A stretch of 37,195 nucleotides of DNA from an uncultured Rhodospirillaceae bacterium (GTDB taxonomy: Bacteria > Pseudomonadota > Alphaproteobacteria > SP197). The position numbers and the translations under genes are program-made. The notes under the pieces were generated by a model. The model had not been told where the DNA came from. It was given only the letters and a program-made list of their open reading frames with translations, and ran no database searches. The DNA lies in the NCBI GenBank assembly GCA_937880925.1, contig CALGGB010000080.1:1-37195 (forward strand). The letters are read 5' to 3'. This document shows positions 1,954-20,243 of the stretch, one piece after another. How positions within the stretch are numbered: position 1 is the stretch's first letter; each line of letters begins with the position of its first letter.

Positions 1954-2769
1954 CTACTTGCTGCGGCCGTAGGTCATGGCGACGGCGGCAGCCGGCTCCA
2001 GATTGCGGAAGGTGAAGCTCTCCTCCAGATAGAGGCGGACCTTGTCGTCGGTGGCGGAGGTGAAGCCGATGGAGATGTCCTGGCCGACGACCAGCTCGAA
2101 ATCGCCGCCGCGCATGCTCATGACGCAGGCGCCGTTGACGGCGGGCGCCCAGACCAGCGGACCGTCGATCAACTGGCGGACATGCTCGATCACCGGATAA
2201 CCACCCTTGGAGGTGGTGGTCATCAGACCCTTGTAGCAGCGCGGACCGAGCGCGATGGCATAGGGGCCACCGACGCCTTCCTCGCGCAGCATGGTGAGCG
2301 CTTCCTGCACCGCCGAGGGATACTTCTCGTAGTCGGTCGAGAGCGTCACGGCCTTGTGCTCGGAGCCGCTCATGATGCCGTCGATTCCACCGGCGCTATA
2401 GCCGTCGAAGATCGCCTTGTCCTCGGCGAACGCCATCTTGCGGGCGGCCTCGACGACCTCGTCGAACGCGACGTGACGGGCGCCGCGGGCAACAGCCTCG
2501 ATCTTCTCGCGCGGTACCTCGAAGGGCACACGGAACTCAACCAGGGGCAGAGCCTGGCGCTGGCGCGCATCGACCCCGGCCTCGGGCGCCTTGGAGAGTT
2601 TCTTGGTCACGCCCAGATCGACGGCATAGGCCTGCCAGCCCAGGGGGCCGGTGAAATCGGCGAGTTTGCGGCCGGCCAGATACTCCTTGAGCGTCTCGCT
2701 GGCTTCTTCTTCGATCGCTTCCCATGCCTCTGTCGGGATGGGAGCGAGATTGCGCATGAGATGATTCAT
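1954..2769 (-). CDS. encapsulin nanocompartment shell protein (family 1, linocin-like)
   Basis: [45 protein letters not shown]...; C-terminus [34 protein letters not shown] typical of encapsulins; directly downstream of the encapsulated ferritin gene. Confidence 0.95.
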
Positions 2770-2773
2770 GATG

Positions 2774-3154
2774 TTATCCCTTCGTCCGCAGGCTGCCGAT
2801 ACCAAGCGAGCCGTCCTTGGGCTGGCTTTCGCCGCCCTCCTCGCCGCCTTCCACTGCACCATGCTCGACCCCAACAATGGGGCCGGAGGTGAAGAGATAG
2901 GTGCGCAACTGCTCATCGACGACCGGATTGCGACGGCGCAGCCATTCCAGAACCATGGCGGCGTGCTCCATCTCCTCATCGCGGTTGTGGATCAGGATTT
3001 CCTTCAGCTCGGCGTTTTCCGCCGCCTCGGCGCGCTGGTCGTACCAATCGACGGCCTCCAGCTCCTCAAGCAGAGAAACCGTGGCACGGTGACGGTCGAT
3101 GGTCTCGGACGAAAGATCCTCGAATCTCTCGTGTAGCTCGGTTGAGCCAGCCAT
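2774..3154 (-). CDS. encapsulated ferritin-like cargo protein (EncFtn)
   Basis: ELEAVDWYDQRAEA...HNRDEEMEHAAMVLEWLRR...LRTYLFTSGPI; C-terminal targeting peptide GSLGIGSLRTKG; 4-nt gap to encapsulin. Confidence 0.94.
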   Translation of the reverse strand: MAGSTELHERFEDLSSETIDRHRATVSLLEELEAVDWYDQRAEAAENAELKEILIHNRDEEMEHAAMVLEWLRRRNPVVDEQLRTYLFTSGPIVGVEHGAVEGGEEGGESQPKDGSLGIGSLRTKG

Positions 3155-3236
3155 GTGGGCAACCCCCTTTTGTGATTTCGATGCGCAGCCCCCCGGCCGC
3201 ACATCTGTCGAACGCACGGCAGCGGGCTACGCTGCG

Positions 3237-3812: not shown

Positions 3813-4697
3813 ATGCCCGCACAAGAACAAGAACCGATCATCCGTCTGGGTCTGCCCAAGGGGCGCATGCAGGAGGCCGTGTTCGACCTGCTGGAGCATG
3901 CCGGCATTCACATCACGGCGAGCGGGCGTAACGACCGGGATTATCGGCCCAGACTCTCCCTGCCGGGCTTTGAAGCCAAGCTGCTGAAGCCGCAGAACAT
4001 TGTCGAAATGCTCCATGTCGGGAGCCGCGACCTGGGTTTCGCAGGCGCCGACTGGGTCGCCGAAAAGGGCGCAAACCTGATTGAACTGCTCGATACCGAG
4101 CTTGATCCGGTAAGTCTCGTCGCTGCGATCCCCTCGAAAATGCTGAACGACGGCGCCCTGCCAACGACCCATCTGGTGGTCGCCAGCGAATACGAGCGCC
4201 TGACCCGCGGCTGGATCGCCTCGCGCAAGCTGGATGCGACCTTCGTGAGGAGCTACGGCGCCACCGAGGTGTTCCCGCCCGAGGATGCCGACTGCATCGT
4301 CGACAACACGGCAACCGGCTCGACCCTGCGGGCCAACGGCCTGGAGATCGTCGATACGGTGATGAAATCCTCAACCCGGCTATATGCCCACCCCGCAGCA
4401 CTCGAAAACACCGGCAAGCGCGGCCCGATCGAGAGCTTCGTCACCATGGTCCGTTCGGTCCAGGATGCACGGCGCCGGGTGATGGTCGAGGTCAATGTTT
4501 CGGCCGACAACCTGGAATCGGTCATCGAGGTCCTGCCCTGCATGCGCGAACCCACGGTCTCGCCGCTGCACGGCAATGGAGGTTTTGCCTTGAAAGCGGC
4601 CATTCCCCGCGAAATGCTGGCCCGCGTGATCCCTGAGATCAAGGCGCGCGGCGGCACGGATATCGTCGTCTTCCAGATCGGCAACATCGTCGCCTGA
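3813..4697 (+). CDS. hisG: ATP phosphoribosyltransferase, long form
   Basis: [23 protein letters not shown]...; central [37 protein letters not shown]-terminal regulatory domain ...[18 protein letters not shown]. Confidence 0.93.
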
Positions 4698-4704
4698 GGC
4701 AGCC

Positions 4705-5292
4705 ATGACAGCGCGTTGCGCCACCGTCGCCCGCAAGACCAAGGAAACCGACATCTCGGTGACCGTCACCCTGGACGGCACCGGCAAGGCCGAGATTTCA
4801 ACCGGCCTGCGGTTCCTCGACCATCTGCTCGATGGCCTGACCCGCCACAGCCGCATGGACGTGAGCATCACCTGCACGGGTGATCTCGACATCGACGATC
4901 ACCACACGGCAGAGGACTGCGCCATTGCGCTTGGCCAGGCCTTCGACAAGGCACTGGGCGACAAGCGCGGCATCGCCCGTTTCGGCCATGCCTATGCCCC
5001 GCTGGACGAGGCGCTGGCCCGGGCCGTGCTCGATATCTCCGGGCGCCCTTACGCCTTCGTCGATCTGGGCCTGCGCCGCGAGAAGGTGGGCGATACGGCG
5101 ACCGAGATGATCGGGCACGCCCTGCAGTCCTTCGCCATGGCGGCCAAGCTCACCCTGCATGTGGAACTGATCCGCGGCCAGAACGACCACCATCGTGCGG
5201 AGGCGGCCTTCAAGGCGCTGGCGCTGGCGTTGCGCATGGCGGTGGCAGCCGCCGGGCACGACGACGTGCCCAGCACCAAGGGCGTGCTGTGA
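4705..5292 (+). CDS. hisB: imidazoleglycerol-phosphate dehydratase
   Basis: [18 protein letters not shown]...[15 protein letters not shown]...[17 protein letters not shown]...[18 protein letters not shown]. Confidence 0.96.
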
Positions 5293-5897
5293 GCGCGGGA
5301 CGCGAGGTCGTCGTCTGCCGCACCGGCACGGCGAACCTTGCTTCCGTTTTCGCCGGCCTGCGCCGTGCCGGCGGCGAGCCGCGCATGGCCGAGACCGTCG
5401 CCGACATCGAGAACGCCGGCCACGTCATGCTGCCGGGCGTGGGTTCGTTCGGCCACGCCATGGAGACCCTGCGCGAGGCCGGTTTGGTCGCCCCGCTGGT
5501 TGCCCGTTTCGCAGCCGGACGCCCGACCATGGCGATCTGCGTGGGCCTGCAGCTTCTGTGCGCCAGCAGCGAGGAGTCGCGAGGCGTCGAGGGTCTGGGT
5601 GTGATAGAGGCCGATGTCTTCCGCTTTCCCGAAAGCGTGCGTGTGCCCCAGTTCGGCTGGAACCACGTCACGGCGAACACCGATTGCAGACTGATCGCCA
5701 GCGGACACGCCTATTTCGCCAATTCCTACCGCCTGGCCGAACGGCCCAGCGGCTGGGCCGTGGCGACGGCCGATCACGGCGGCACCTTCGTTGCAGCCAT
5801 GGAGCGCGGCGCGCTGCTCGCCTGCCAGTTCCACCCGGAGCTTTCGGGCGCCTACGGGCACGCCCTGCTCTCGCGCTGGATTGCCATGCCATGCTGA
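5289..5897 (+). CDS. hisH: imidazole glycerol phosphate synthase subunit HisH
   Basis: [19 protein letters not shown]...[13 protein letters not shown]...[10 protein letters not shown]...GWNHV...ACQFHPELS; 4-nt overlap with hisB. Confidence 0.94.
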
Positions 5898-6673
5898 CCT
5901 GCCGCGTCATTCCGTGCCTGGACGTCGACAACGGCCGCGTCGTCAAGGGCGTGCGCTTCCAGGGCCTGCGCGATGCGGGCGATCCCGTGGAACTCTCCAT
6001 GGCCTATGAGGCCCAGGGCGCCGACGAACTGGTCATGCTCGACGTCTCGGCGACACCCCAGGGTCGCGGCAATGCGCTGGTGACCGTGGCCGCCGTGCGC
6101 GCCGAACTCGCCATCCCGCTGACCGTGGGCGGCGGCGTACGCAAGGTGGAGGACGCAGGCGCGCTGCTGGAGGCCGGGGCCGACAAGGTTGCCGCCAACA
6201 CCGCAGCGGTCGAACGCCCGGAACTCTTGACCCAGATCGCCACGCGATACGGCAGCCAGTGCGCCGTCGTCGCGATCGACGCCGCCCACCGCCTGGAGGG
6301 CCAGGCCGGCTGGGAGGTGGTCGTGCATTCGGGCAAGGACCGCACGGGGAAGGATGCCGTGGGCTGGGCGCGCGAGGCGGTGGAACGCGGTGCGGGCGAA
6401 ATCCTGCTGACAAGCTGGGACCGCGACGGTACGCGCAGCGGTTATGATACCGATCTGCTGGCGGCCGTTTCGGCAGCGGTCCACGTTCCCGTCATCGCCT
6501 CGGGCGGCGCTGCCAATGCCGACCACCTGATCGCTGCCCTGAAGGCCGGGGCCGACGCGGTGCTCGCGGCCTCCATCTTCCACGAGCGCGAGTACACCGT
6601 AGGCGACATCAAACGCGCCATGGCCCAGGCCGGCATCCCCGTTCGGCTCGACGATATCGCCTCCGGGGACTGA
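5891..6673 (+). CDS. hisF: imidazole glycerol phosphate synthase subunit HisF
   Basis: [36 protein letters not shown]...; ATG at 5891 overlapping the hisH end; the 5195 ORF start is artefactual. Confidence 0.95.
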
Positions 6674-6683
6674 GGCAGCGCCC

Positions 6684-7874
6684 GTGGACGCTTCCCCGCC
6701 CAGGCGCCTGCCGGTCATCGCCTTCTGCTTTGGCCACATGGCGGTCGACTGGCCCCATGGCGCCATCTGGATTCTCGCGCCGGCCCTGGCCGTTGCGATG
6801 AACCTGTCGCCGGGGGAACTGGGTACCCTGTTTGCCGTCACCGCTGTGGGCAGCACGGTCACGCATATTCCCGCCGGCATGATCACCGACCACTTCGGGC
6901 GGCGCGGCCTGCTCTTTGTTACGACCTTCATCTGGGTCGTTCTGGGTTATGGCGCGGCGACCCTGGCGCCGGATTTCTGGTCGCTCACCTTCATGCTGGC
7001 GCTGGCAGGCATGGGCACGTCGGCATGGCATCCGCTGGCCACCGGCACCCTGACCCAGGCCATGCCCGGCCAGCGCGCGCGCATCCTGGGCATCCACGCG
7101 ATGGGCGGCACCCTGGCGGAGGTCTTTGCCCCTCTGCTGACCGGCGTTCTGCTCACTTTTGTCGACTGGCGCACGGGCCTTGGCCTCTCGATCGTTCCGG
7201 CTGTCATCATGGGCGCCGTCTTCTTTGTCATGCGCGACCGGATGAATGTGCCCGGCCCCACGGGCGCCTCGATGCTGGACATGAAGGACCTCTGGCAGCG
7301 CTGGTCCAGCCGCACCGGCCTGGCGCTGGTCGCCATGATCAGCATCTACAACATGGCGATCATGGCCGTGCTGGCCATGGCCACGCTCTACCTGGTCAAC
7401 GACCTGGGTCTGACGACCACCGTGGCGGGCTTTGCCTTTGCCGCCATGATCCTGGCCGGGGCCCTGTTGCAGCCGCTGATGGGCCACCTCTCCGACCGGC
7501 GCGGCAGGCGCAAGGTTTTCGCCGCCTCGCTGCTGGCCGTGGCCCCACTTGGCATCGCCATGCCGTTCATCGCCAACCCCGTGATCGCCGTGGCTTTCCT
7601 GGTCGCCATGATCGGCGCCTTCTACGGCGTGCGTTCGGTGGTGCTGGCTTCGGCAGTTGACTTTGCCGGCAAGCGCGAAGGCACGACCCTGGGCCTGACC
7701 TTTGTCATGATGGACGGGATCGGCGCACTGGGCGCGCTGCTGGGCGGCTTTGCCGGCGACTTTGATCTCACCTGGGCCTTCGTGCTGGCGTCCGGCTTCG
7801 CCATTGTCTCGGCGACCATCGCGATCCTCTCGAGCCTGGCCTTCCCCGTCATTGCCCCGGAGCGCCGGACATGA
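6684..7874 (+). CDS. MFS transporter
   Basis: About 12 hydrophobic segments; GMITDHFGRRGLLF and LMGHLSDRRGRRKVFAAS MFS motifs; GTG start; 4-nt overlap with the next his gene. Confidence 0.88.
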   Translation: MDASPPRRLPVIAFCFGHMAVDWPHGAIWILAPALAVAMNLSPGELGTLFAVTAVGSTVTHIPAGMITDHFGRRGLLFVTTFIWVVLGYGAATLAPDFWSLTFMLALAGMGTSAWHPLATGTLTQAMPGQRARILGIHAMGGTLAEVFAPLLTGVLLTFVDWRTGLGLSIVPAVIMGAVFFVMRDRMNVPGPTGASMLDMKDLWQRWSSRTGLALVAMISIYNMAIMAVLAMATLYLVNDLGLTTTVAGFAFAAMILAGALLQPLMGHLSDRRGRRKVFAASLLAVAPLGIAMPFIANPVIAVAFLVAMIGAFYGVRSVVLASAVDFAGKREGTTLGLTFVMMDGIGALGALLGGFAGDFDLTWAFVLASGFAIVSATIAILSSLAFPVIAPERRT

Positions 7875-9124
7875 TCATTCCCTCGATCGACCTCATGGGC
7901 GGCCAGGCCGTCCAGCTTATCGGCGGCAAGGAACGCGCCATCGATGCGGGCGACCCGCGCCCGATTGCAGAGCGTTTCCGCCTGGCCGGCGAGATCGCCG
8001 TCATCGACCTCGACGCTGCCCTGGGTCAGGGCGACAACGCCGCGCTGATCGAGGACCTTGTGAAGATGGCGCCCTGCCGGGTGGGCGGCGGCATCCGCGA
8101 TGTCGAAACCGCGATCCGCTGGCTCGATGCCGGCGCCTCCAAGGTCATCCTGGGTACGGCGGCCAAGCCGGAAATCCTGAGCCAACTGCCGCGCGAGCGG
8201 GTCATCGCAGCGCTTGATGCCGTGGAGGGCGAGGTCGTCACCCACGGCTGGACGACCAGGACCGGCGCCTCCATCGACGACCGCATGGCCGAGCTTGCGC
8301 CCCATGTCGGCGGCTTCCTCGTCACCTTCGTCGAGCGCGAGGGCCGCATGCAGGGCACCGACATGACGGCCACGCGCCGACTGGTCGATGCCGCCTCAGG
8401 CGCCAAGCTCACCGTGGCCGGCGGCTTCACCACGGCCGAGGACATTGCGCTGGCCGACAAGGTGGGCGCGGACGCCCAGGTCGGCATGGCGCTCTACAGC
8501 GGCCGCCTGAATCTGGCCGATGCCATCGCCGCCCCGCTCAAGAGCGACCGCGCCGACGGCCTGTGGCCAACCGTGGTCTGCGACGAGCATGGCCGGGCCC
8601 TGGGGCTGGTCTATTCTGATCTCGAAAGCCTGCGCGTGGCGGTCGAACGCCGCGTCGGAGCCTACCACAGCCGTTCGCGCGGCCTGTGGGTCAAGGGCGA
8701 GACCTCCGGGGCGACCCAGGAACTGCTGAAGATCGATCTCGACTGCGACCGCGACGCCCTGCGATTCACCGTGGCCCAGGCAGGCTCGGGCTTCTGCCAT
8801 CTCGACACCTGGACCTGCTGGGGCGAGGACGCCGGCCTGCCCGAACTCGCCCGCCTGACCGCGGCCCGGCGCGAGGATGCACCGGAAGGCTCCTACACCC
8901 GCCGCCTGTTCGAGGAAGCGGGCCTTCTGGAAGCCAAGCTGGTCGAGGAAGCCGGCGAACTGGCCGAGGCCGCCACGGCCGGGGAGGTCGCCCACGAGGC
9001 GGCCGACGTCATCTACTTCGCCATGGTTGCCATGGCACGCGCCGGTGTTTCCCTGCACGATGTCGAGGCCGTGCTGGAGCGGCGCGGGCGCAAGATCACG
9101 CGCCGCCCCGGCAACGCAAAGTAG
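7871..9124 (+). CDS. hisA-hisIE: trifunctional HisA-HisI-HisE fusion (ProFAR isomerase / phosphoribosyl-AMP cyclohydrolase / phosphoribosyl-ATP pyrophosphatase)
   Basis: One 417-aa uninterrupted ORF: HisA (MIIPSIDLMGGQAVQLIGGKE...VIAALDAVEGEVVTHGW), then HisI (GLVYS...YHSRSRGLWVKGETSG...DCDRDALRF...GFCHLDTWTCWGE), then HisE (EGSYTRRLFEEAGLLEAKLVEEAGELAEA...HEAADVIYFAMVAM). Confidence 0.9.
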   Translation: MIIPSIDLMGGQAVQLIGGKERAIDAGDPRPIAERFRLAGEIAVIDLDAALGQGDNAALIEDLVKMAPCRVGGGIRDVETAIRWLDAGASKVILGTAAKPEILSQLPRERVIAALDAVEGEVVTHGWTTRTGASIDDRMAELAPHVGGFLVTFVEREGRMQGTDMTATRRLVDAASGAKLTVAGGFTTAEDIALADKVGADAQVGMALYSGRLNLADAIAAPLKSDRADGLWPTVVCDEHGRALGLVYSDLESLRVAVERRVGAYHSRSRGLWVKGETSGATQELLKIDLDCDRDALRFTVAQAGSGFCHLDTWTCWGEDAGLPELARLTAARREDAPEGSYTRRLFEEAGLLEAKLVEEAGELAEAATAGEVAHEAADVIYFAMVAMARAGVSLHDVEAVLERRGRKITRRPGNAK

Positions 9125-13542: not shown

Positions 13543-15801
13543 GTGCGCAGGGGACCCCGTCCGGTGACCGCCGGTTTCGACTACAAGCGCCGGGTGCTGG
13601 CCTACGCCGACCGCATCAGTGTACGGCCGGGCGATGAGGTTGCGTTCAAGGTCAGCCTCGAGGACCACGAACGTTTCGACTTCAAGGTCGTGCGCGTGGT
13701 CAACGGCGTCGAGACGCCGACGGGCGCACCCTACAAGGAGGTCGAGGTTGAGACCGCCGCCGACGGCAGCTACCCCGGCGGCTTCCAGCGGATCGATGCC
13801 GGCTCCTACGCCGTGGTGCCGGGCTCTCCCGCGCTCGACCGGCTCGCGAGCTTCACCTTCCAGTGCTACCTGATGCCCACCCTGCCGGGCGACGGCCGCC
13901 AGGCGATCTGCAGCCGCGGCTCCGGGCCGAAACGGCCGGGCTTTGCCGTGATCCTAGACGACAGGGGGGCGCTGGCGCTGATGATCGGCGACGGCAAGGA
14001 CCTGGTCACCGTTTCCACGAACGTGCCGATGCTGCCCTGGAAATGGGCCTTCGTCTCGGCAAGCTATGATGCACAAACCGGAGAGGTCGAACTCTGGCAG
14101 GAGCCAGACGAGCGCTACGTCACCATCGACAGCTTTGCCCATGTCACGGGCGAAGCGCCCAGGGGCGCAGTCTTCGCCGCCGACCACGACCTGCATCTGG
14201 CAGGCTGGCAGGTCGGCGTCCACGAGGACGGTCGGCCGCGTATGGCCGGTCTCTTCAACGGCCGCATCGACAGCCCGCGACTGGCCTCCAAGGTCGTGGT
14301 CTGCCACGAGATGAGCAAGCTGGCGCGCACCATCCCGCCGCGCGCGGCCTGGGTGCTGGGCGCCTGGGACTTCTCGCGCGACATGTCGGGCGACAGCATC
14401 GTTGACGTCTCCGGCAACAACCTGCACGGCCACCTCGTCAACCTGCCGGCCCGTGCCGTCACCGGCTACCACTGGGATGGCTCCTGCCACGACTGGACCA
14501 GCAAGCCTGAGCATTACGCCGCCATTCACTTCCACGACGACGACCTGCACGATGCCGGCTGGCAGACCTCGGTGACGCTGACCGTGCCGGAGGATCTCAA
14601 GAGCGGCGTCTATGCCGGGCGCTTCCGTGCGGGCGATGACGAAGCCTATGTCCCCTTCTACGTACGCACGGCAAAAGGCACCAAGAAGAAGGCCATCGCC
14701 TTTCTTGGCTCGACCGCGACCTACATGGCCTATTCCAACAACCACTGGCAGCTCGACGAGGAGAAGGCCGAGGTCAAGCGCGGCCGCATCATTGCCTACA
14801 CGGGCGACGAGCTGTTCCTCAACGAGCGCCGCGATCTGGGCCTGTCGACCTACGACAGCCACCGCGACGGCTCGGGCGTGATGTACGCTTCGCGCCTGCG
14901 CCCCGTGGTGCTCAACTTCAATCCGAAGTCGATCATCTGGAGCTTCAACGCCGACACCCATGTCACCGACTGGATGGAAGCCGAAGGTTTCGACTTCGAT
15001 GTCGTGACCGACGAGGACATCCATGCCGAGGGCGTTTCGGCCCTGGAGGGCTACAAGGTCATCGTCACCGGCGCCCATCCCGAATACTGGTCGACGCCGA
15101 TGTGGGATGCGCTGACCGCCTATTTCGATCGCGGCGGTCGCATGATGTACCTGGGCGGCAACGGCTTCTACTGGCGCATCGGCTGGAACGCCGACCTCAC
15201 CGCCATCGAGATCCGCCGCGCCGAATCGGGCGCGCGCTTCTGGGCCTCCCTGCCCGGCGAATACCACCAGAGCTTCACCGGCGAGATGGGCGGCCTGTGG
15301 AAGCGCATCGGCCGTCCGCCGCAGTCGCTGGTCGGCATCGGCACCTTTGCCACGGGCTTCGACCGCTGCGGCTGGTTCGAGCGCGCCGAGGGGGCCGACA
15401 ACCCGCGCGCCTCGTGGATTTTCGAGGGCGTGAGTGATGGTCCCATCGGCAATTACGGCGTGCTGGGCAACGGTGCCGCCGGCATCGAGCTCGACGGCGT
15501 CGACCATGCCCTTGGTTCGCCGCTCGACACCATCGTGCTGGCGCGCTCCACGGGCCATTCGGCCTATTACATGCAGAGTCCCGACGAGATCGTCTTCAAC
15601 CATGCCGCGGTCAACGGCGATGCCAACCCGCGGGTGCGCGCCGACATGATCTATTACACCCTGCCATCGGGTGCGGGCATGTTCGCCACCGGCTCGATCA
15701 GCTGGGCCGCCAGCCTGGGGCACAACGGCTACGACAATGACGTCTCGCGCATCACCGCCAACGTGCTGACCCGATTCGCCAACGAAGAGCCCCTGCCCTG
15801 A
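13543..15801 (+). CDS. N,N-dimethylformamidase large (beta) subunit-like protein, paralogue 1
   Basis: ADRISVRPGDEVAFKV N-terminus, LamG-like middle, ATYMAYSNNH, LSTYDSHRDGSG, TGAHPEYWS, YLGGNGFYWR motifs. Alternative GTG start at 13564 preceded by AGGGGA may be the true start. Confidence 0.85.
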   Translation: MRRGPRPVTAGFDYKRRVLAYADRISVRPGDEVAFKVSLEDHERFDFKVVRVVNGVETPTGAPYKEVEVETAADGSYPGGFQRIDAGSYAVVPGSPALDRLASFTFQCYLMPTLPGDGRQAICSRGSGPKRPGFAVILDDRGALALMIGDGKDLVTVSTNVPMLPWKWAFVSASYDAQTGEVELWQEPDERYVTIDSFAHVTGEAPRGAVFAADHDLHLAGWQVGVHEDGRPRMAGLFNGRIDSPRLASKVVVCHEMSKLARTIPPRAAWVLGAWDFSRDMSGDSIVDVSGNNLHGHLVNLPARAVTGYHWDGSCHDWTSKPEHYAAIHFHDDDLHDAGWQTSVTLTVPEDLKSGVYAGRFRAGDDEAYVPFYVRTAKGTKKKAIAFLGSTATYMAYSNNHWQLDEEKAEVKRGRIIAYTGDELFLNERRDLGLSTYDSHRDGSGVMYASRLRPVVLNFNPKSIIWSFNADTHVTDWMEAEGFDFDVVTDEDIHAEGVSALEGYKVIVTGAHPEYWSTPMWDALTAYFDRGGRMMYLGGNGFYWRIGWNADLTAIEIRRAESGARFWASLPGEYHQSFTGEMGGLWKRIGRPPQSLVGIGTFATGFDRCGWFERAEGADNPRASWIFEGVSDGPIGNYGVLGNGAAGIELDGVDHALGSPLDTIVLARSTGHSAYYMQSPDEIVFNHAAVNGDANPRVRADMIYYTLPSGAGMFATGSISWAASLGHNGYDNDVSRITANVLTRFANEEPLP

Positions 15802-15802
15802 C

Positions 15803-18022
15803 ATGCTGAAACTTCTTTCCTACACCGACCGGCTCTGGGCGCGCCCCGGCGAGGACGTCACGGTCTTTGCCAGCGCGGAAGGCTTCGACAGCATCGATGT
15901 CGAACTCGTGCGCCTGATCTGCGGCGACGACAGTCCCAAGGGGCCGGGTTACCGTGAAGAAGAGGTGGCGGGAACGCGCCAGACCGTGGCCGCAACCTTC
16001 CAGCCGATCCATGCCGGCTCGTGCATCGTTGCCGACGACGCCGCGCCGCTTCACACACTCGACGATGCAACGCTCCAGATTCTCGTCTGGCCGACGACGC
16101 CTGAGACCGGCGAACAGGCCGTCATGGGCATCTGGGACAGCCGCAACAAGGCGGGTTTCCTGCTCTCCATCGGACCCGAGGGCGCCGCGCTCACCACCGG
16201 CGACGGCAAGACGGTCAGCCGTGTTGCGACCGGCGCGCCGCTGGTGGCGCGCGAGTGGTATCTGCTGGCTGCAAGCCACGACGCGGTCAACGGCATGCTG
16301 CGTATCGCCCAGCACCCGCTCAACCGCGATGGTCGCGGCGAGGTGGCGCACGCAGCCGTAGCAGACAAGGCCACCCCGCCCAGGGCCTCAGCCGAGACGC
16401 CCTTCATGGTCGGTGCGGCCTGGGGCGGCCCGGGCAATGCCGATGGCCTGCGGCCCGTGCAGTGCTTCAACGGCAAGGTCGAAGCGCCCCGCGTGCTGCG
16501 CCACTACGAGACCGACCTAGCCGGGCTCAACGAGGCCGGCAGTGTGGCCCCTGGCGCGCGCGGCGTCGCGCTGGCCTGGGATTTGAGCCGTGCCATGACC
16601 GGACTGCGAGTCGAGGACGTGTCCGGCAACGGCCGCCATGGCCGTACCGTCAACCTGCCGACCCGCGCCATGACCGGGCACGACTGGACCGGCGACGAAC
16701 ATGACTGGCGTCACGCGCCGGACCAGTACGGCGCCATCCACCTGCACGATGATGACATCGGCGATGCCGGATGGCAGGCGACGGCGCGCGTCAGCCTGCC
16801 AGAGGGTCTCCGCAGCGGCATCTACTGCATCAAGCTTTCGGGTGGCGGTCACGAGGACATGCCTCCCATCGTTGTTCAGCCGCCGCGCGGCGGAAAAACA
16901 GCCGACATCGCCTTCCTCTCCTCGACGGCGACCTACCAGACCTATGCCAACTATCACCACGGCATGGACGATGCCGGTGCGGAAATGCGCTCGGCAAGCG
17001 CCACCATCCTGTCGCCCTCGGATGCCCACCTCTTCGAGCACCGGGAACTGGGCCATTCGCCCTACGACACCCACAGCGACCTCAGCGGCGTGACGGTGGC
17101 GAGCGCCCGCCGTCCCATGCTGGGCTACCGGCCCAAGGCCGGGCTGTGGAGCTTCAACGCCGACACCCATATCACCGCCTGGCTCGACGACTGCGGCTTT
17201 GCCTGGGACGCGATCAGCGACCACGCGCTCCACGACGAGGGCCTTGCCCTGCTGGCGTCCTACAAGGTGGTCGTCACGGGGACCCACCCGGAATACTGGT
17301 CGACCTCCATGTGGCAGGCGATGACCGCCTATCTCGATGGCGGCGGCCGCCTGATGTATCTGGGCGGCAACGGCTTCTACTGGCGCATCGCCTTTCATCC
17401 CGAGTTCCCCGATGCCCTGGAGGTGCGCCGGGCCCATGCCGGCGCACGCTACTGGATCGCCGAGCCCGGCGACTACCACATGGCCTTCTCGGGCGAGCTG
17501 GGCGGCCTGTGGCAGCGTATCGGCACGGCGCCCCAGAAGCTGGTCGGCATCGGCACCGTGGCGACGGGTTTCGATTCCTGCGGCTGGTACGAACGCCTGC
17601 CCGACAGCACCAACCCCCGCGCTTCCTGGATCTTCGAGGGCGTGGGCGAGGACGAGAGGATCGGCGATTTCGGCCAGCTCGGCGGCGCCGCCGGCCTGGA
17701 ACTCGACTGGGTCGACCGCACCCTGGGCACTCCCGCCCACTGCCTGCGGCTGGCCAGCTCCACTGGCCATTCCAGCCAGTATCTCCAGACCATCGACACC
17801 ATGACCTTCAACCACACGGCGGTCGCCGCGCCGGTCAATCCGGCCGTGCGCGCAGACATGGTGTTCTTCGAAACACCCAACGGCGGCGGCGTATGGTCGA
17901 CCGGCTCGATTGCCTGGGCGGCCAGTCTGGCCAGCGATGGCTACAACAACAATGTCGCTGTCATCACCGGCAATGTGCTGCGGCGCTTCGCCGACCCTAC
18001 TCCGTTCGAACAAGGAAACTGA
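15803..18022 (+). CDS. N,N-dimethylformamidase large (beta) subunit-like protein, paralogue 2
   Basis: TDRLWARPGEDVTVFAS; ATYQTYANYHH, HSPYDTHSDLSG, TGTHPEYWS, YLGGNGFYWR. Confidence 0.85.
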   Translation: MLKLLSYTDRLWARPGEDVTVFASAEGFDSIDVELVRLICGDDSPKGPGYREEEVAGTRQTVAATFQPIHAGSCIVADDAAPLHTLDDATLQILVWPTTPETGEQAVMGIWDSRNKAGFLLSIGPEGAALTTGDGKTVSRVATGAPLVAREWYLLAASHDAVNGMLRIAQHPLNRDGRGEVAHAAVADKATPPRASAETPFMVGAAWGGPGNADGLRPVQCFNGKVEAPRVLRHYETDLAGLNEAGSVAPGARGVALAWDLSRAMTGLRVEDVSGNGRHGRTVNLPTRAMTGHDWTGDEHDWRHAPDQYGAIHLHDDDIGDAGWQATARVSLPEGLRSGIYCIKLSGGGHEDMPPIVVQPPRGGKTADIAFLSSTATYQTYANYHHGMDDAGAEMRSASATILSPSDAHLFEHRELGHSPYDTHSDLSGVTVASARRPMLGYRPKAGLWSFNADTHITAWLDDCGFAWDAISDHALHDEGLALLASYKVVVTGTHPEYWSTSMWQAMTAYLDGGGRLMYLGGNGFYWRIAFHPEFPDALEVRRAHAGARYWIAEPGDYHMAFSGELGGLWQRIGTAPQKLVGIGTVATGFDSCGWYERLPDSTNPRASWIFEGVGEDERIGDFGQLGGAAGLELDWVDRTLGTPAHCLRLASSTGHSSQYLQTIDTMTFNHTAVAAPVNPAVRADMVFFETPNGGGVWSTGSIAWAASLASDGYNNNVAVITGNVLRRFADPTPFEQGN

Positions 18023-18026
18023 GACC

Positions 18027-20243
18027 ATGAAGAAGCTGCTGGGCTATTGCGACGAGATCAGTGTCCGCCCGGGCCAGGACATCAACTTCAAGGTTTCCAG
18101 CGAGGACGCCGGCGAATTCCAGCTCGACATCGTCCACGTGCGCTGCGGCGACGACACCCCCAGCGGGCAAGGCCTGAAGGAAACGGTGGTGAAGGCCGGC
18201 GTCAACGGCAGCTATCCCGCGCGCTACCAGTGGACCCAGGTCGGCAGCTTCGTGGCGGTGGAGAACACCGCGCCCTTCGCCCTGGAGAGCTTCACCCTGC
18301 AGTGTTTCATCTGGCCGACCCTGCTGGAGAAGGAAGAGCAGGCGCTGATGGGGGCGTTCAACGCCGCCGACAAGGCCGGCTACATGCTCGGCATCGAGAA
18401 CGGCCAGGCGGTGCTCAAGGTCGGCGACGGCAAGAGCGTGGAGACGCTGGCCTCCGGCGCGGCGATGGATGAGCGGCGCTGGTATTTTGTCGCCGCCAGC
18501 TTCGATGCAGAAACGGGCAAGGCCTATCTCGTGCAGGAGCCCCTGCTGCGCTACGCCGGCGACCGCGGCAAGGCGACGGTCGAGAGCACCATGAAGGTGC
18601 GCCCCGGCAGCGGCGGGCGTTTCCTGATCGCGGCCTGCAACGACCGGCGTGAGGGCGAGGTGATCGCCACGGCCCATGCCAACGGCCGCATCGACGCTCC
18701 CACCGTGGCGCGGCGCGCCCTGTCGCGCGCCACCATGGAGCGGCTGAAGCCGCGCAGCGTGCCGCGCGATGTCGCCACCGATGTCGTCGCCATGTGGGAC
18801 TTCAGCAAGGAAATGGACGGCGTCGTCGCCCACGACATCTCGGTCAACCGCCACCACGGCGCCATCGTCAACATGCCGACGCGCGCGACCAAGGGCTGGA
18901 ACCACGACAACAGCGAGATGGTCTGGACCCACAAGCCCGAGCACTACGGCGCGATCCACTTCCACGACGACGACGTCTATGACTGCGGCTGGCAGACCGA
19001 CGCTTCCTGGACCGTGCCCGACGACCTGAAGAGCGGCACCTATTGCGCCCGCCTGACCCAGGGCGACCAGTGGTTCTACATCCCCTTCTACGTCCGCCCG
19101 CACACCGGAAAGCCCAAGGCGCGGCTGGCCCTGCTGATCGCCACCGCGAGCTACTACGCCTACGTCAACAACCACATGCCGATCGGCTGGGGGTCGCTGG
19201 GCGAACACGCGGGCAACACCTTCAGCCACCTCGACCAGGTGGACCTGCACCTGCAGATGCACCCCGAGCACGGCCTTTCCATGTACGACATGCACAGCGA
19301 CGGTTCGGGTGTCGCCTACGCCTCGCGTCTGCGCCCGTTCCTGCACATGGGGCCGCGCGACAGCCTTTGGCAGTACAACGCCGACACGCACATCACCGAC
19401 TGGCTGGAGGAAAAAGGCATCGCCTTCGACGTCTTCACCGACGACGACATGCATGAAGAAGGCGTCAGCCTGCTCGAGCACTACGACTGCGTCATGACGA
19501 CGACCCATCCGGAGTACTACACCACCGAGATGATGCATGCCCTGCTGCACTACCAGGACCGCGGCGGGCGCTTCATCTACATGGGCGGCAACGGCTTCTA
19601 CTGGCGCGTTGCCTTCAATCCGAAGATGCCGGGCGCCATGGAGATGCGCCGCGCCGAGGACGGCATGCGGAGCTGGATCGCCGATGGCGGCGAATACTAC
19701 ATGAGCTTCACCGGCGAGCTGGGCGGCCTGTGGCGGCGCAACGGCATCGCACCCGAAGCGATCTGCGGCACCGGCTTCGCGGCCCAGGGCTTCAACTATG
19801 GCCGGCCCTATGAGAGGACGGCAGCGAGCGAGGACCCGCGCGCGGCCTGGATCTTCGAGGGCATCGGGCGCGACGAGAAGATCGGCGATTTCGGCACCGT
19901 CTTCGGCGCCGCAGCGGGCAGCGAGATCGACAGCGTTGATTTCGAGATCGGCACGCCGCCCCACACCCTGGTCATCGCCCAGGCCATGGACTTCGGCGTC
20001 GACTTCCACTGGGTGAAGGAGGAGCACCAGCACGCCCACTCGGCGGTCAACGGCGAGAACAACCCCTACGTCGTCTGCGACATGGTGTTCTACGAGACGC
20101 CGAACGGCGGCGCGGTCTTCTCGACCAGCTCCATCGCCTTTGCCGGCTCGCTCGCCCACAACAACTACGACAACAACGTCAGCCGCCTGCTGGAAAACGT
20201 CGTCACGCGCTTCTGCGACCCCGAGCCGATTCCGGCGCCCTGA
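18027..20243 (+). CDS. N,N-dimethylformamidase large (beta) subunit-like protein, paralogue 3
   Basis: MKKLLGYCDEISVRPGQDINFKVSS; ASYYAYVNNH, LSMYDMHSDGSG, TTTHPEYYT, YMGGNGFYWR; ATG at 18027 after AAGGAAAC (the 17910 ORF start overlaps paralogue 2). Confidence 0.86.
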   Translation: MKKLLGYCDEISVRPGQDINFKVSSEDAGEFQLDIVHVRCGDDTPSGQGLKETVVKAGVNGSYPARYQWTQVGSFVAVENTAPFALESFTLQCFIWPTLLEKEEQALMGAFNAADKAGYMLGIENGQAVLKVGDGKSVETLASGAAMDERRWYFVAASFDAETGKAYLVQEPLLRYAGDRGKATVESTMKVRPGSGGRFLIAACNDRREGEVIATAHANGRIDAPTVARRALSRATMERLKPRSVPRDVATDVVAMWDFSKEMDGVVAHDISVNRHHGAIVNMPTRATKGWNHDNSEMVWTHKPEHYGAIHFHDDDVYDCGWQTDASWTVPDDLKSGTYCARLTQGDQWFYIPFYVRPHTGKPKARLALLIATASYYAYVNNHMPIGWGSLGEHAGNTFSHLDQVDLHLQMHPEHGLSMYDMHSDGSGVAYASRLRPFLHMGPRDSLWQYNADTHITDWLEEKGIAFDVFTDDDMHEEGVSLLEHYDCVMTTTHPEYYTTEMMHALLHYQDRGGRFIYMGGNGFYWRVAFNPKMPGAMEMRRAEDGMRSWIADGGEYYMSFTGELGGLWRRNGIAPEAICGTGFAAQGFNYGRPYERTAASEDPRAAWIFEGIGRDEKIGDFGTVFGAAAGSEIDSVDFEIGTPPHTLVIAQAMDFGVDFHWVKEEHQHAHSAVNGENNPYVVCDMVFYETPNGGAVFSTSSIAFAGSLAHNNYDNNVSRLLENVVTRFCDPEPIPAP

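Follow-up and report, generated by a model that had tools for sequence, protein, structure and literature searches.

Fusions among the genes of histidine synthesis have been described repeatedly, and the arrangements closest to the one considered here come from bacteria, archaea and eukaryotes. One account lists five his fusions, none of them HisA-HisIE, and reports that no HIS4-like protein was found in prokaryotes (PMC1963479). The bacterial HisIE proteins (E. coli; Shigella, 6j22) and plant HISN2 (7bgm) share with our protein the HisI and HisE domains, their order and their metal ligands, but are without HisA. A similarity network built around HISN2 mentions, in a single sentence, a trifunctional PRA-PH/PRA-CH/ProFAR-isomerase in some Gammaproteobacteria and Spirochaetia (PMC8102479, 2021); those sequences combine the same three activities per chain and are said there to have a common origin with HIS4 of fungi and with Myxococcales sequences, but no domain order, residues, operon or wider phyla are given there. 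HisA/F-HisIE fusions from four archaeal metagenome assemblies likewise join a barrel to HisIE, are scarce and uncharacterised, and are set beside our family by description only (PMC11237513, 2024). Finally, the heptafunctional His protein of Acanthamoeba (1682 aa; PMC6029752, 2018) is a single eukaryotic polypeptide in the order IGP synthase/cyclase, HisA, HisI, HisE, HisD, HisG, which, by this described order, is collinear with the bacterial genes hisH-hisF-hisAIE-hisD. The HisA-HisI-HisE architecture is thus unusual but previously seen in print: the initial annotation did not know it as a standard arrangement, and it is indeed uncommon, but it is not unknown, given these three mentions (the last inside the larger Acanthamoeba protein).

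The gene we examined, hisAIE, lies on contig CALGGB010000080.1 of an uncultured Rhodospirillaceae bacterium, of which positions 1 to 37,195 are called the window here. It is one intact, ATG-initiated reading frame whose three domains had been proposed from the letters alone, and a conserved-domain search recovered all of them (Table 1), each far above its Pfam cut-off: HisA with 143 bits for PF00977 (cut-off 23.6), HisI with 78 bits for PF01502, far over the threshold, and HisE with 66.8 bits for PF01503 (cut-off 21.3) and 68 for TIGR03188 (cut-off 42.7). The chain carries no HisD domain and so does not have the HisI-HisE-HisD composition of HIS4. Against the NCBI equivalog models the scores stay below the cut-offs, both for the HisA part (TIGR00007, 146.8 against 228.95 bits; NF010112, 154.1 against 243 bits) and for the HisIE part measured with the full-length model (127.4 against 187 bits); both halves are therefore divergent members of their families, and these shortfalls count against reading the protein as trifunctional.

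Table 1. Features of the his region, in window coordinates.
Feature	Position	Strand	Basis or remark
hisG, long form with HisG_C	3813..4697	+	
hisB (IGPD)	4705..5292	+	
hisH	5289..5897	+	tblastn to HisH
hisF	5891..6673	+	
MFS transporter gene, between hisF and hisAIE	6684..7874	+	seen only in the alphaproteobacterial family
hisAIE, HisA-HisI-HisE fusion, 417 aa	7871..9124	+	Pfam domains, full-length homologues, AF2 model
HisA (ProFAR isomerase) domain, residues 1-213	7871..8509	+	PF00977, residue table, Foldseek to PriA/HisA
HisA-HisI junction, residues 214-245	8510..8605	+	well ordered in AF2 model; DRxDGLW conserved (family alignment)
HisI (PR-AMP cyclohydrolase) domain, residues 246-317	8606..8821	+	PF01502, invariant ligand columns
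HisE (PR-ATP pyrophosphohydrolase) domain, residues 324-405	8840..9085	+	PF01503, TIGR03188, invariant columns

About 100 collinear homologues were found. Within the same family, all 15 other genomes searched carry a full-length hisAIE at 69-92% identity, and a scan in which each species was represented by a single genome added 80 loci, 56-92% identical, each in a single frame and nearly all matching end to end. By record taxonomy these 80 belong to Myxococcota, Pseudomonadota, Planctomycetota, Actinomycetota (Acidimicrobiia), Gemmatimonadota, Acidobacteriota, Armatimonadota, Spirochaetota and Sumerlaeota, although most are metagenome bins, for which single assignments may be wrong. A protein search (E up to 1e-50) placed the fusion in 9/290 alphaproteobacterial, 41/141 myxococcotal and 17/150 planctomycetotal genomes, and in one Pseudomonadota sample every other genome having HisI (58/58) kept a separate HisI or HisIE. 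A more distant subfamily at 42-52% identity was also recovered. Two single reading frames go further and run HisA-HisI-HisE-HisD, one in a member of the Polyangia (locus L061, from 6001, + strand) and one in Planctomycetota (L115, from 5237, + strand); they form a tetrafunctional bacterial counterpart of HIS4, but with a HisA domain. Along with the more distant subfamily, two genomes of the Planctomycetota group (L233, L234) have HisA-HisI fusions without HisE on the same frame.

In most of the 80 loci the genes follow the order hisG-hisC-(gap)-hisB-hisH-hisF-hisAIE-hisD, whereas the alphaproteobacterial family of the window has hisG-hisB-hisH-hisF-MFS-hisAIE, with hisD on another contig of the window's genome; in several Acidimicrobiia hisAIE is flanked by no other his genes. 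The stop codon of the MFS gene overlaps the hisAIE start as ATGA, which suggests that the two may be translationally coupled. Elsewhere in the window, an encapsulin shell gene (1954-2979, minus strand; PF04454, 297 bits) adjoins an encapsulated ferritin-like gene (2774-3217, minus strand; PF22277, 129 bits), the latter ending in the likely targeting peptide LGIGSLR; the pair points to an iron-storage nanocompartment. Three paralogues, roughly 740-750 aa long and arranged in tandem, occupy positions 13543-20243 (plus strand); all of them carry PF20254, the C-terminal domain of the N,N-dimethylformamidase beta subunit, and such a triple array is unusual.

An AlphaFold2 model (62 family members; mean pLDDT 92.6, pTM 0.88) shows a complete barrel followed by HisIE. 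In Foldseek searches the barrel matched PriA and HisA (best target TM 0.82-0.84) and the remainder matched plant HISN2, and among the matches listed there was no PDB entry for a fused HisA-HisIE. Plant HISN2 is a dimer (PMC8102479), and HisAIE would presumably dimerise through its HisIE part as well.

Most of the catalytic residues are in place. In the HisA barrel D7, D116 and T152 (Asp7, Asp129 and Thr171 in E. coli numbering) are invariant in 104/104 sequences, as are the phosphate-binding equivalents, and the GGG/R76 and W127 positions are conserved. HisI keeps D291, C292, D293, D295, C309, H310 and C316 across the fusion alignment; aligned by motif, these are the counterparts of the plant HISN2 ligands Asp125, 127 and 129, Cys126, 142 and 149, and His143 (PMC8102479). 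In HisE, E359, E360, E363, E376 and D379 are invariant, with E360, E363, E376 and D379 as the Glu/Asp metal ligands. The initial annotation had named the HisA Asp, Asp and Thr and the HisI DCDRD, CH and C motifs, all of which stand, but in calling the key HisA residues present it missed a replacement: canonical Asp176 is Glu157 in the window gene (codon 8339-8341), and Glu in 103/104 fusions, against Asp in 15/15 ordinary HisA and 7/7 HisF of the comparison set. Asp176 is the catalytic aspartate of S. enterica HisA (PMC9088769), and its change to Ala or Val abolishes HisA activity there (PMC7591586), which counts against the trifunctional reading, as do further substitutions seen across the family (R15 to Q, D172 to F in most members, S202 to A, R226 to M); R15S, on the other hand, leaves S. 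enterica HisA active (PMC7591586). Because Glu157 retains a carboxylate, HisA activity of the fusion is plausible.

Whether other genes could supply these steps was addressed by searching for separate hisA, hisI and hisE. The window's genome, a 91%-complete draft, contains a single match each to HisI and HisE, both within hisAIE, and no other HisA was found in it; since it is a draft, a separate hisA in the missing part keeps a small probability. Its four strong HisA/HisF-type matches are hisAIE, hisF and two further PF00977 proteins, which we considered as backup HisA enzymes and rejected, for they are HisF paralogues adjoining HisH paralogues. These two pairs lie on contigs C158 and C245, the former next to a gene resembling a sugar-nucleotide cytidylyltransferase and the latter next to one resembling WbpG-type sugar amidotransferases, both recognised by eye. 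Across the family, 55/60 fusion-bearing genomes have no other HisI.

The evidence favours three working domains, and we consider it very probable that hisAIE encodes a single protein with three activities, catalysing steps 2-4 of the histidine pathway, and that it belongs to a distinct family that has spread between phyla, usually together with the operon. The C-terminal HisE domain would remove pyrophosphate from PR-ATP to give PR-AMP, the middle HisI domain would turn PR-AMP into ProFAR by opening its adenine ring, and the N-terminal barrel would isomerise ProFAR to PRFAR, to be consumed by HisF-HisH from the same operon; substrate might also be handed over between the domains. To judge from conservation and genome content, hisAIE most likely performs these steps in vivo, and all three domains would be catalytic, with Glu157 in place of the usual Asp.

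The main competing account is that only HisIE is active and that the barrel is a structural remnant, or acts on another substrate, with HisA activity coming from another gene. The Glu at position 176, joined by the R15Q, D172F and R226M swaps, speaks for it, as do the seemingly decayed or lost barrel of fungal HIS4 and an extra orphan HisA-like gene, away from the operon, in eight relatives (L182-L189). We nevertheless hold it to be improbable, given the invariance of the remaining catalytic and phosphate-binding positions and the lack of another HisA in the window's genome. Nor do the orphan genes help it: at the positions of HisA Asp7, Asp129 and Thr171 they encode Glu, Ala and Val/Ile, and because these three residues are lost they probably encode no working HisA that could serve as a backup. 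Still less probable is a PriA-type barrel that also catalyses the TrpF step, an idea that draws on the nearest PDB relatives by sequence and fold, which are actinobacterial PriA/HisA; the window's genome has a separate TrpF (PF00697, 124.7 bits), so that no such dual role is needed, and TrpF is present in 10/11 genomes tested (the 11 include one without the fusion). That two genes were merged by a frameshift or an assembly error, one of the outcomes by which the initial annotation would have been overturned, can be rejected even for a draft metagenome assembly, for the same uninterrupted reading frame recurs in about 100 independent assemblies, complete chromosomes included.

Having weighed these accounts, we return to the fusion and its relatives. 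In a HisIE tree the fusions separate from ordinary HisI/HisIE (support 99/88), including the clade of E. coli and Priestia HisIE, and in a HisA tree they lie on one side, with weak support. Fungal HIS4 was compared through provisional S. cerevisiae and Pichia sequences, written out without a database record when the window protein was already known. Three checks speak for them. Their lengths are 799 and 843, where PMC1963479 gives 799 and 844, and the yeast sequence has domain positions and scores as expected. Their HisD half is 46-49% identical to E. coli HisD and 33-38% to the operon HisD; this nearness to E. coli makes it less likely that they were drawn towards the window protein. It also led us to reject descent of HIS4 from the bacterial HisA-I-E-D fusions, and the fungal and bacterial HisD fusions are thus probably independent. 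The HisIE half of the provisional sequences, by comparison, is 46-53% identical to the fusions and about 35-37% to bacterial HisIE, and these sequences branch among the fusions (support 100/99 for the crown; in an AU test, p 0.042 against a topology of fusions excluding fungi), so that HIS4, which has no recognisable HisA, would be nested there by its HisIE half. Independently of the provisional sequences, published work places HIS4 near Myxococcales, with HisA-containing trifunctional sequences of similar ancestry (PMC8102479).

According to PMC1963479, fungal HIS4 begins with a region to which no function has been assigned. Against the HisA family profile the provisional N-termini gave a weak collinear match over 35 columns (best P 0.0014), which is suggestive only; the Pichia N-terminus alone scored 21.3 and the yeast-Pichia pair 28.4, against at most 17.3 for shuffles of the Pichia N-terminus. 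No fungal HIS4 chain was found in the PDB, and a plasmid search returned bacterial HisIE only, among the matches listed. Judged on these comparisons, the N-terminal region may be a decayed HisA. We lean slightly towards the wider proposal that HIS4 arose from a bacterial HisAIE-family fusion, with its N-terminal region as the decayed barrel, and that eukaryotic His multi-enzymes (in Acanthamoeba, HisHF-A-I-E-D-G) keep the operon order hisH-hisF-hisAIE-hisD.

In the literature consulted we found no description of the breadth of the family, its operon context, its HisA signature or the two bacterial HisA-I-E-D fusions, and we regard these as new, together with the evidence for HIS4 inside the HisAIE clade. 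A fusion mentioned only in passing thus turns out to be a widespread bacterial enzyme family that has an operon of its own and a changed HisA active site, and that is suited to probing the role of the catalytic Asp and any coupling of three consecutive steps. The same family offers a hypothesis, open to test, on the origin of fungal HIS4, of the unexplained N-terminal region of that protein and of the domain order of the Acanthamoeba His protein.
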